Source: Streptomyces afghaniensis 772
GTDB lineage: Bacteria; Actinomycetota; Actinomycetes; Streptomycetales; Streptomycetaceae
Length of the DNA: 47,451 nucleotides
Assembly (NCBI GenBank): GCA_000415505.1
Contig: KE354221.1
Location: 1-47,451, forward strand
Reading direction: 5' to 3'
A model generated the notes under the pieces. The model worked only from the letters and a program-made list of their open reading frames with translations. It ran no database searches and was not told the DNA's origin. Below are positions 32,216 through 35,087 of this stretch, one piece after another (positions within the stretch are counted from its first letter, which is position 1; the number at the start of each line of letters is the position of its first letter). The position numbers were made by a program, and so were the translations under genes.

Positions 32216-32819
32216 GTGATCAAGAACAACAGTCCCGTGACGGCGCGGACCGGGCGCACGAGCCGCCTGCGGTTCGCACTGGCCCTGGCACCCCTGCTCC
32301 TGGGTGCCTCCGCCCTGCTGGCCGGAAGCGCCGCGGGGGCCGGTCTCCGTGGCGTTCGCGGGGGAGGTGCCGGTCACGGTCCATGCCGCTCGGGTGGCCG
32401 GGTCGGGTGTCTCGGCCTCTCCGGGCGCCTCCGGGCATGGCGGTCTGCTGCCGGCGCTGGCCACGCGGGTGGAGCGGGCCACCGTGCACGACGCCTGCGT
32501 GACCTCCACCGCCCGCCTGCCGGTCGTCGGCGCGGTGACGGCCGTCGTGCGGATCGAGCGTGCGGCGGCCACCGGGTTGACCGTGGAGACGGGCAAGACC
32601 ACTGCCGGGTCGGTGAAGCTGTCCGGCGCGACGTTCGGCACACCGCAGAGGGCCCCGGACCGGCCCACGGGCCTGTTCACCGTCGGCGCGGAGCAGGTCA
32701 GCGGCAGCCGGGTGACCACGCAGCCGCACGCCTTCACGGCCGGGACGATCACCTCCCGGGGTGTGGCCATCGAGGTGCGCCGGGCCGAGGGCGGCTGCGA
32801 GCCGGGAGCGGCCCGATGA
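32216..32819 (+). pseudogene. DUF6230-type exported membrane protein, frameshifted after the signal/anchor
   Basis: From the GTG at 32216 the first frame reads MIKNNSPVTARTGRTSRLRF and a hydrophobic helix ending LLAGSAAGA. The rest continues in the next frame from about 32340 to 32819: PVSVAFAGEVPVTVHAARV, VHDACVTSTARLPVVG, TTQPHAFTAGTITSRGVAIE and a C-terminal GGCE. Removing one G from the run at 32335-32339 would join them into about 200 residues. This layout (basic N-terminus, one helix, external domain with two conserved Cys) is that of DUF6230, usually encoded next to DUF6114 as here. The stop overlaps the DUF6114 start (ATGA). The function of the family is unknown. Confidence 0.72.
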
Positions 32820-33217
32820 GCGCGGTGATCCGGCCCGCCGGGTGGTCCGCGTGGCCTGCCGGGTGGTCCGCGTGGCGTCAGGGCCGTCCGTTCGCGGCGG
32901 GACTGCTGCTCGCCCTCGGCGGGCTGGAGTTGATCGGCGTCTCCTGGGTGGGGCTGGGATTCCTGCGGTTCACCGGCACCGCGGGCGCGGCCTCATGGAC
33001 CCTGGGCGCCCTGTTCGTCGTCGCCGGTGTGACGACGTGGCGCAACCCCGCCCTGCGCTACTTCTCCGGCGTCCTGGCCGGCGTGCTGTCCCTGGTCAGC
33101 CTGGTCGCCGCCAACCTCGGCGGCCTGCTCCTCGGCTTCCTGCTCACCGCCGTCGGCAGCGCCCTGGCCCTGGCCTGGATCCCCCAGCAGGCGCCTTCGA
33201 CTCGAGAGGAGGCGTGA
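32816..33217 (+). CDS. DUF6114 small integral membrane protein
   Basis: A 133-residue protein with a Trp-rich, basic N-terminus (WSAWPAGWSAWRQGRPFAAG) and four predicted membrane helices, ending in a short polar tail (PQQAPSTREEA). The GRPFAAGLLLALGGLEL start of helix 1 is characteristic of DUF6114 as I recall it. It overlaps the DUF6230 gene and is followed, after 1 nt, by the prenyl-synthase fusion, so the three form one operon. Function is unknown. A role in anchoring or transporting an isoprenoid product is only a guess from the neighbour. Confidence 0.75.
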   Translation: MSAVIRPAGWSAWPAGWSAWRQGRPFAAGLLLALGGLELIGVSWVGLGFLRFTGTAGAASWTLGALFVVAGVTTWRNPALRYFSGVLAGVLSLVSLVAANLGGLLLGFLLTAVGSALALAWIPQQAPSTREEA

Positions 33218-33218
33218 G

Positions 33219-35087
33219 GTGAGGCCTTTGCCCGTGCACCCCGCCCGCGTCTACCGGAGCAGCGGCATCCACGACCCGGTCCTGCGCCGCGGCTACGAGG
33301 AATGCCGCCGCGCCACCCGCGCCAGGGGCGAGATCGAGTACGCCGTCTCGCTGCTGCTCCCGCCGCCCCTGCGGATCGCGACCTGGGCGTTGTACGGCGC
33401 CGGGGTGACGGTGGACTGCCTGGCCGACACGGCACAGCCGTCGGACACGAAGGACGCCGGGCGCGCCGAGCGGCTGGAGGCGTGGATCTCGGCGTTCGAC
33501 GCCGACCTGCGCGACGGCCGCAGCACCGACCCGGTACGGAAAGCGCTGATCCACACCATGCTCACGTGGAACCTGCCGCCGGGATTCATGCACACCCAGT
33601 TCGAGCAGCTGCGCCTGGACGCCCACGGGCGCCGGTTCGCCACGTGGGAGGAGTGGCGACGCTACAACGGCCTCGTCACCACCCCGTTCCTGCTGCGCGC
33701 GGCCTCCCTGATGATGCGGGTCGCGGGTCTGTCCGCCGAACCCGAGTCGATCGCCTCAGGCGTACCGGAGGCGGCGGTGGCGTGGCAGACGGCAGCCGAC
33801 GCCATCCTCCTCACCGATGCCCTCGTCGACCTCTCCGAAGACCTGGCCGACGGACATGTGCCGCTGCCGCAGGAGGCCCTGGACGAGGCCGGCGTACGCC
33901 GCGCCGACCTCCTGGACCGGCGCAGCACCCCCGCCTTCGAGGAACTGGTGCGCCGCCTGGCCGACAGGGCCCGTGGCTGGCTGGACCGGACACCGGTGCC
34001 GCCCGTGCTGCACCCGGCGGTCGGCATCGCGCTCGGCGCTTACACAGACCTGTACCGGCTGCGCCTGAGGGCCGCCGCCGACGCTCCGGCCGCGCTGCTG
34101 CTGCGCCGCCCGGCCGTGCCGGGAGGTGCCCGGCTGCGCGTGCTGCTGCCCGCCCGGACGCGGGTCGCACTGGCCTGGACCCTCTTCCCGCTCCCCGTAC
34201 GCCCCTGCCCGCCGCCGGAACCGGCCGGCCCGCCCGCAGGACCGGCCAGGGCCGAAGCGACCGAAGCACGCCCTCTCACCACCGAGCGGCGGCCGGTGGT
34301 CCCTCCGGCACCGCACCCGTCCGGCGCCCGCCCGCCCCGGTTGCCCGCCGGGGCCGTGCCGCGCCACGTCGCGATCGTGATGGACGGCAACGGCCGCTGG
34401 GCCACCGCCCGGGGCCTGCCGCGCCCCGAGGGCCACCGGGCGGGCGCCGACGCACTGGTCGACGTCGTCCACGGCGCCCTGGAGATCGGCCTGAAGTACC
34501 TGACCGTGTACGCGTTCTCCACCGAGAACTGGAAACGCCCGGCTGACGAACTGCAGGCCCTGATGCAGGAGGTGCCCCGGCAGCTGCGGCGGATCACGGA
34601 CGACGCCAAGCCGCTGGACGTCCGCGTGCGCTGGGCCGGACTGCGCTCCCGCCTGCCGGCCGACGTCATCGAGACACTCGTCGACGCGGAGCAGGGCACC
34701 CGCGACCGCACCGGGCTCACCCTGACCGTGTGCCTCAACTACGGCGGCCGGGCCGAGATCACGGCAGCAGCGGCACACCTCGCGCAAGAGGCGGTCGCCG
34801 GGCGGATCGACCCCGCCTCGGTCTCCGAGCACGCCTTCGCCCGCCACCTGCACGTCCCCGAGCTGCCGGACGTCGACCTGCTGCTGCGCACCGGCGGCGA
34901 CCAGCGCACCTCCAACTTCCTGCCCTGGCAGGCCACTTATGCCGAGCTGCTGTTCCTCGACACCCCGTGGCCGGAAGTGGACCGCCGTGACCTCTGGGAC
35001 GCGATCGAGCAGTACGCCCGCCGCACCCGCCGCTACGGCTCCGTCCCTCGCATTCCCGCGCAGGCCCGGCCGGCGCATGGGGCGTGA
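33219..35087 (+). CDS. Fusion of a squalene/phytoene-synthase-like domain with a cis-prenyltransferase (UppS-like)
   Basis: A 622-residue two-domain protein starting at the GTG at 33219 with AGGAGG 6 nt upstream. Residues about 25-300 match the squalene/phytoene synthase fold: YAVSLLLPPPLRIATWALY, a first Asp motif D66CLAD70, YATW-like RFATWEEWRRYN, and a second motif D204LSEDLADG followed by VPLPQEALDEAGV. A Pro-rich linker (about 325-375) leads to a complete cis-prenyltransferase: IVMDGNGRWA (Asp389), RPEGHRAG, YAFSTENWKRP, and RTGGDQRTSNFLPWQATYAE (near 557). The second domain should extend an allylic diphosphate with cis units; the first would ionise or couple prenyl diphosphates head-to-head. 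Both active sites look intact. The DUF6230/DUF6114 neighbours suggest a membrane-linked isoprenoid. Confidence 0.85.
   Translation: MRPLPVHPARVYRSSGIHDPVLRRGYEECRRATRARGEIEYAVSLLLPPPLRIATWALYGAGVTVDCLADTAQPSDTKDAGRAERLEAWISAFDADLRDGRSTDPVRKALIHTMLTWNLPPGFMHTQFEQLRLDAHGRRFATWEEWRRYNGLVTTPFLLRAASLMMRVAGLSAEPESIASGVPEAAVAWQTAADAILLTDALVDLSEDLADGHVPLPQEALDEAGVRRADLLDRRSTPAFEELVRRLADRARGWLDRTPVPPVLHPAVGIALGAYTDLYRLRLRAAADAPAALLLRRPAVPGGARLRVLLPARTRVALAWTLFPLPVRPCPPPEPAGPPAGPARAEATEARPLTTERRPVVPPAPHPSGARPPRLPAGAVPRHVAIVMDGNGRWATARGLPRPEGHRAGADALVDVVHGALEIGLKYLTVYAFSTENWKRPADELQALMQEVPRQLRRITDDAKPLDVRVRWAGLRSRLPADVIETLVDAEQGTRDRTGLTLTVCLNYGGRAEITAAAAHLAQEAVAGRIDPASVSEHAFARHLHVPELPDVDLLLRTGGDQRTSNFLPWQATYAELLFLDTPWPEVDRRDLWDAIEQYARRTRRYGSVPRIPAQARPAHGA

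Follow-up and report, generated by a model that had tools for sequence, protein, structure and literature searches.

What does an enzyme do that carries a prenyl-synthase-like domain and a complete cis-prenyltransferase in one polypeptide, and why does its gene follow a pair of genes of the uncharacterised DUF6230 and DUF6114 families? The question is raised by a locus in Streptomyces afghaniensis 772 (GenBank assembly GCA_000415505.1, contig KE354221.1, positions 1 to 47,451; we refer to this whole stretch of 47,451 nucleotides as the window). We found that the squalene-synthase-like (SQS) and cis-prenyltransferase (CPT) domains are fused throughout a family of related enzymes, and that the membrane partner encoded beside the fusion is exchanged between branches of that family. 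The transporters that relatives have in place of the DUF pair point to an exported isoprenoid lipid as the product. We suggest, with a probability of somewhat less than 40%, that the two-domain enzyme makes a cis-polyprenyl chain and uses it without releasing the intermediate, in a non-canonical transfer, and that the membrane partner takes the product. A search of titles and the beginnings of abstracts in the open-access literature found no published description of an SQS-like/CPT fusion.

The fusion gene (33219..35087, plus strand, like all features of the window described here) is an uninterrupted open reading frame (ORF) with a GTG start that encodes 622 amino acids. The N-terminal domain (residues 40-300, 33336..34118) matches the Pfam family SQS_PSY (PF00494; 105.5 bits, cut-off 26, E 4.9e-30). 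The C-terminal domain (residues 387-607, 34377..35039) matches Prenyltransf (PF01255; 244.9 bits, cut-off 27, E 8.8e-73) and TIGR00055 (231.4 bits, cut-off 109.55). Between them lies a Pro-rich linker (17 Pro of 50; residues 327-376, 34197..34346). The SQS-like domain contains two Asp motifs, D66-C-L-A-D70 (33414..33428) and D204-L-S-E-D208 (33828..33842), and the CPT domain contains the catalytic motif MDGNGRW with D389 (34380..34400) and the motif RTGGDQR with R557 (34887..34907). D66, D70, D204, D208, D389 and R557 are invariant in 15 aligned orthologues, as are M388-W394, R557-D561 and R563 of the CPT domain. An initial annotation of this DNA had described the two domains in one enzyme, these residues, the Pro-rich linker and a distance of 1 nt between the fusion and the pair upstream; all of this was borne out, as was the similarity of the N-terminal domain to squalene and phytoene synthases. 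Structure comparison showed that both domains agree with their respective known folds. The AlphaFold2 model of the whole fusion was middling (mean pLDDT 61.5, pTM 0.47; residues 558-622 low, linker residues 326-362 and 366-376 below pLDDT 50), and we therefore do not interpret the packing of the domains.

A scan of named genomes for the SQS domain yielded 17 close-orthologue loci, all from Streptomyces and 58-92% identical. Across the genus, 66 of 392 genomes had an SQS match with E 1e-18 or better. Nine of the 66 have close orthologues (at least 66% identity, counting the window's genome; the gene of G104 has a stop), and the rest have distant fusions and other SQS-type genes. When a profile of the fusion domains was used as the query, 25 of 297 Streptomycetaceae genomes had matches of at least 218 bits. 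A sample of 394 genomes from across the class had such matches in 5, all from Streptomyces, and its next best match scored 192.9 bits (some of all these matches were opened). Four genomes (G197, G881, G907 and G953) had two such matches each. Members of the family occur in Streptomyces, in Embleya (L006) and in another genus of the Streptomycetaceae (G781). Because high-scoring matches were found only there, the family looks confined to the Streptomycetaceae within the sampled genomes. 

Of 52 non-redundant loci in the fusion clade, 49 encode both domains in one uninterrupted frame; two of the other three are cut by contig ends (L011, L055) and the third has the CPT domain in another frame (L064, which has no DUF, ABC or MMPL neighbour). 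In L008 and L091, SQS and CPT are adjacent, separate genes. The counts of 52 loci here and of 27 distant loci below are based on hand-chosen context regions (34 regions, the plasmid loci L006-L008 and the 17 Streptomyces loci), and the 52 additionally include short loci. L025 and the G104 gene (L040/L087), which have frame breaks, are not in the 52 and were removed before residue counts and tree building.

We compared gene neighbourhoods using a simple gene caller, BLASTP clusters and Pfam searches of representatives. In the window, the DUF6114 gene (32816..33217; 133 aa; PF19609, 90.2 bits, cut-off 27.9, E 1.6e-25; two hydrophobic segments over threshold) overlaps the DUF6230 stop with its start, and a single nucleotide separates its own stop from the fusion gene. 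Close orthologues usually keep these neighbours: both DUF genes are directly upstream in 13 of the 17 close-orthologue loci. Distant fusions differ. An ABC ATPase and an ABC-2-like permease lie beside 13 of 27 distant loci (11 directly upstream, 2 on the other strand), DUF6230 and DUF6114 lie upstream at two (L060, L065), and an MMPL transporter is found at one (L071). Where CPT and SQS are unfused, in L008 and L091, an MMPL gene likewise comes after them (identified by Pfam in L008 and by cluster in L091). Pfam scores were 100.4 bits for the ATPase of L061, and 230.2 and 227.0 bits for the MMPL proteins of L008 and L071. The permease was assigned because of its ATPase partner and the five hydrophobic segments found in L066 and L069, beside a weak Pfam match. 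An ABC ATPase-like gene approximately 1.6 kb downstream of the L085 fusion was not counted as adjacent.

We found that membrane partner and enzyme can share one ORF. DUF6114, SQS-like and CPT regions form a single ORF in S. scabichelini (L024:9557-11893), as do an ABC-2-like permease region and SQS-CPT in L069 (L069:8385-10958) and a permease-like region and SQS-CPT in L062 (L062:8465-11083; the permease label is by likeness of the sequence start only). Sequencing errors that deleted a stop could account for part of these. Partner labels were clustered on the tree, with 5 changes compared to a mean of 13.1 after shuffling and a value as low in 0 of 200 shuffles, a result helped by near-copies. 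An exported isoprenoid lipid is suggested because relatives replace the membrane genes with known lipid exporters.

The CPT domain is likely to make a long cis-prenyl chain, to judge from its relatives and one residue. Among solved structures, those nearest to it in sequence are a C60 and a C50 synthase, going by their titles: the dodecaprenyl diphosphate synthase of Thermobifida fusca (7cpm/7cpn) and the decaprenyl diphosphate synthase of M. tuberculosis. It also keeps the Ala of YAFSTENW. Short-chain enzymes have a bulky residue at this position, which is Leu in the short-chain Rv1086.

In the SQS-like domain, none of the 52 fusion-clade sequences compared has lost any of the four metal-binding Asp residues (D66, D70, D204 and D208). 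In eight chosen pairs drawn from 13 sequences of the window's clade, with members shared between pairs, the ratio pN/pS was 0.24-0.44 for the SQS domain, 0.18-0.44 for the CPT domain and 0.38-1.05 for the linker; judged by these ratios, the SQS-like domain is under purifying selection. W117, D200 and L205 are present in all 52 domains and in LvqB4 and CqsB4, two squalene-synthase-like/phytoene-synthase-like (PSL) prenyltransferases that act on acceptors, and in none of seven canonical enzymes. A quick tree left the fork between the fusion domains and LvqB4/CqsB4 without resolution.

Our results are most consistent with the following mechanism. Starting from an allylic diphosphate, the C-terminal CPT domain would add isopentenyl diphosphate until a long cis-prenyl diphosphate is formed, which the SQS-like domain, kept close by, would ionise using both metal-binding Asp motifs. 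The chain would then pass, in a PSL-like reaction rather than by coupling of two chains, to an acceptor that does not require genes of its own at this site. The resulting lipid would go on to the membrane partner: here DUF6114 together with the exported DUF6230, elsewhere in the family an MMPL or ABC-2-like transporter. Some relatives may in addition use a P450 and a cholesterol-oxidase-like protein to oxidise the lipid.

Alternatively, the SQS-like domain might join two prenyl diphosphates head to head, at least one of them from the CPT domain, yielding a C2n hydrocarbon that contains a cis chain. We regard this as a live but less probable alternative. The GRxYxP signature that follows the second motif has lost its Tyr in every fusion-clade domain (0/52) and its Arg in all but one (1/52), whereas both are present in 7 of 7 canonical rows; coupling of the squalene/phytoene type is therefore not supported as written. 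Gln at the column of CrtM Q165 is found in 0 of 19 domains of the window's clade and in 9 of the other 33; Tyr149 is present in only 3 of those 33. In the window's own subclade (3 of 19), C67 replaces the Asp and V63 the Arg of the first motif. The domain also falls far below the equivalog cut-offs of NCBIfam (HpnC, HpnD and CrtB models), with a best score of 79.8 compared to 278.6 bits. The initial annotation had read the locus as a pathway in which a cis-prenyl diphosphate made by one domain is coupled or cyclised by the other and handled by the membrane pair. That reading is partly supported, and its head-to-head part is what the lost signature speaks against.

The SQS-like domain might instead remove the diphosphate, with quenching by water or ring closure giving a polyprenol or a cyclic terpene. 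YisP is reportedly an example of a water quench that yields a polyprenol. The fold matches are silent on this chemistry; the alternative is live, and we give it slightly less weight than coupling. It is less likely again that the SQS-like domain is non-catalytic, anchoring or regulating a CPT domain that supplies extra polyprenyl phosphate carrier. In the window's subclade the first motif has C in place of D67 and V in place of R63; this and the partial loss of the canonical signature would fit such a role, but the metal-binding Asp residues are universal in the clade and the SQS and CPT domains have similarly low pN/pS ratios while the linker is relaxed. Finally, it is very improbable that the DUF pair and the enzyme are neighbours by chance: both DUF families occur in all genomes of a genus sample (41/41), most of which have no close fusion orthologue, and four close orthologues lack the pair, but the order is kept in the other 13, in one of which DUF6114 shares the enzyme's ORF, the pair recurs upstream of two distant fusions, and partner labels cluster on the tree, to which near-copies contribute.

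Several observations weigh against transfer of the chain to an acceptor and export of the product. LvqB4 and CqsB4 keep the GRxYxP Arg and Tyr that the fusion domains have lost, and the quick tree, with its poorly supported fork, does not group the fusion domains with these two enzymes. The long chain length is drawn from relatives only. The fusion gene itself is broken in L025 (L025:10001-11516) and L087 (L087:9512-11384). No DUF pair is seen in L012, L016, L023 and L025, and 11 of 27 distant loci have no adjacent gene of the DUF, ABC or MMPL types. Permease matches are below the Pfam cut-off of 31.6 bits in L061 (20.6) and L069 (20.3), and L062 has none. Apart from the membrane partners and a P450/cholesterol-oxidase-like (GMC) pair, no cluster recurs beside the fusions, and most neighbours are without annotation. 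Last, DUF6230 is broken in the window's assembly.

The break in DUF6230 is due to one extra base at approximately 32342..32343 that all four relatives in a DNA alignment lack. As a result, the leader (32216..32341, a signal or anchor segment by translation) and the domain of the mature part (32334..32819; PF19741, 39.5 bits, cut-off 27.5, E 8.4e-10) are in different frames, and no intact ORF of the gene starts at 32216. The initial annotation was right about the tight coupling of the pair, given the overlap of start and stop, but missed the frameshift in DUF6230. The leader resembles the N-termini of L009 and L010 (S. coeruleorubidus ATCC 13740) up to LLAGSAAGA; in L010 the hydrophobic segment spans residues 20-38, and the window's domain is 85% identical to that of L010. 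Another alignment covered twelve relatives whose gene is intact. An assembly error is plausible because the draft genome has 1724 contigs and another of its CPT genes (contig C498) is likewise split between frames; a genuine recent break is also possible. The DUF6230 gene of L014 (L014:9110-9582) is itself interrupted by a frame break. AlphaFold2 on 13 DUF6230 sequences gave an unusable model (mean pLDDT 32.9), and NCBIfam models gave no match for the DUF proteins submitted (P0002 and P0003 at E 1, two core-copy proteins at E 0.001).

The fusion's product is probably oxidised in some strains, because an orthologous P450 (70-100%) and a divergent cholesterol-oxidase-like gene (73-100%) lie upstream in 8 of the 17 close-orthologue loci (L012, L013, L014, L016, L017, L019, L020 and L021). 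L012 and L016 have this pair and no DUF pair. The nearest NCBIfam models to the L013 P450 are albaflavenone monooxygenase and pentalenene oxygenase, both below cut-off, and the cholesterol-oxidase-like protein of L014 scores 356 bits, also below cut-off. Neither gene is beside the fusion in the window. The best match to the L014 P450 in the window's genome is 34% identical, and we conclude that this genome has no orthologue of it.

Other neighbours were set aside as not recurring across branches: genes we take to be PNK-like by L074 and L076 (from the sequence start), BrkB and CtaG genes by L067, L073, L080 and L083 (Pfam on L067 only), and carotenoid-type genes by L090 (by sequence). A gene divergent from the fusion in L085 (L085:7395-8627) encodes an FAD enzyme with a squalene-epoxidase-type match (PF08491, 61.1 bits).

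Another copy of the DUF pair appears to be part of the Streptomyces core. DUF6230 and DUF6114 were side by side in 15 of 16 loci fetched, the sixteenth being cut by a contig start. At L102, L104, L105, L106 and L115, this core pair is accompanied by a third conserved gene of approximately 400-500 aa (the L106 contig has DUF6114 only). Its neighbours are presumably pyruvate kinase, acetate kinase and phosphotransacetylase-type genes (pyk/ackA/pta), named from sequence starts. In L103 and L114, a P450 gene comes after a further DUF6230-DUF6114 pair. Going by gene order, the core pair would be SCO5420-SCO5421, with DUF6230 as SCO5420. In one report (PMC7494193), SCO5420 is called a cholesterol esterase and is up almost 37-fold on Tween, and SCO5423 is named pyk2. 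The core and window pairs are alike in families and order, and unlike in setting, the core pair lying by pyk/ackA/pta-type genes and the third gene and the window copy belonging to the fusion.

Long cis-polyprenyl diphosphates in bacteria are known chiefly as carriers for wall and glycan synthesis. If our suggestion is correct, the fusion represents a new use of such a chain, possibly in a new surface lipid. The exchange of the two uncharacterised families DUF6114 and DUF6230 with transporters gives them a testable function. More tentatively, streptomycetes may export isoprenoid lipids of a class not yet described, using two active sites on one polypeptide and at least three membrane systems that have been swapped (DUF6114/DUF6230, ABC-2-like and MMPL); DUF6114/DUF6230 would then be a new kind of lipid-handling pair across Streptomyces.

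Among known systems, the CPT half aligns over its whole length with the T. fusca dodecaprenyl (7cpm/7cpn) and M. tuberculosis decaprenyl (2vg2) diphosphate synthases and keeps their catalytic motifs, but those enzymes stand alone and here the domain makes up the C-terminal part of a larger protein. The SQS-like half has the fold and both Asp motifs of the head-to-head synthases HpnC, HpnD, CrtM and CrtB; unlike them, it falls under the equivalog cut-offs and lacks the GRxYxP Arg and Tyr and, in the window's clade, the Gln. According to two reports, PSL enzymes are a precedent for acceptor transfer by a squalene-synthase fold (PMC6173783, PMC10156859). Unlike the PSL prenyltransferases (LvqB4, CqsB4; DmtC1, NozPT), the fusion has no recognised acceptor genes nearby and has lost GRxYxP; it is also joined to a long-chain-type CPT and, in the quick tree, does not form one clade with LvqB4/CqsB4. 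What is new about the fusion is the way in which it combines known folds, together with a putative export partner that can be exchanged.

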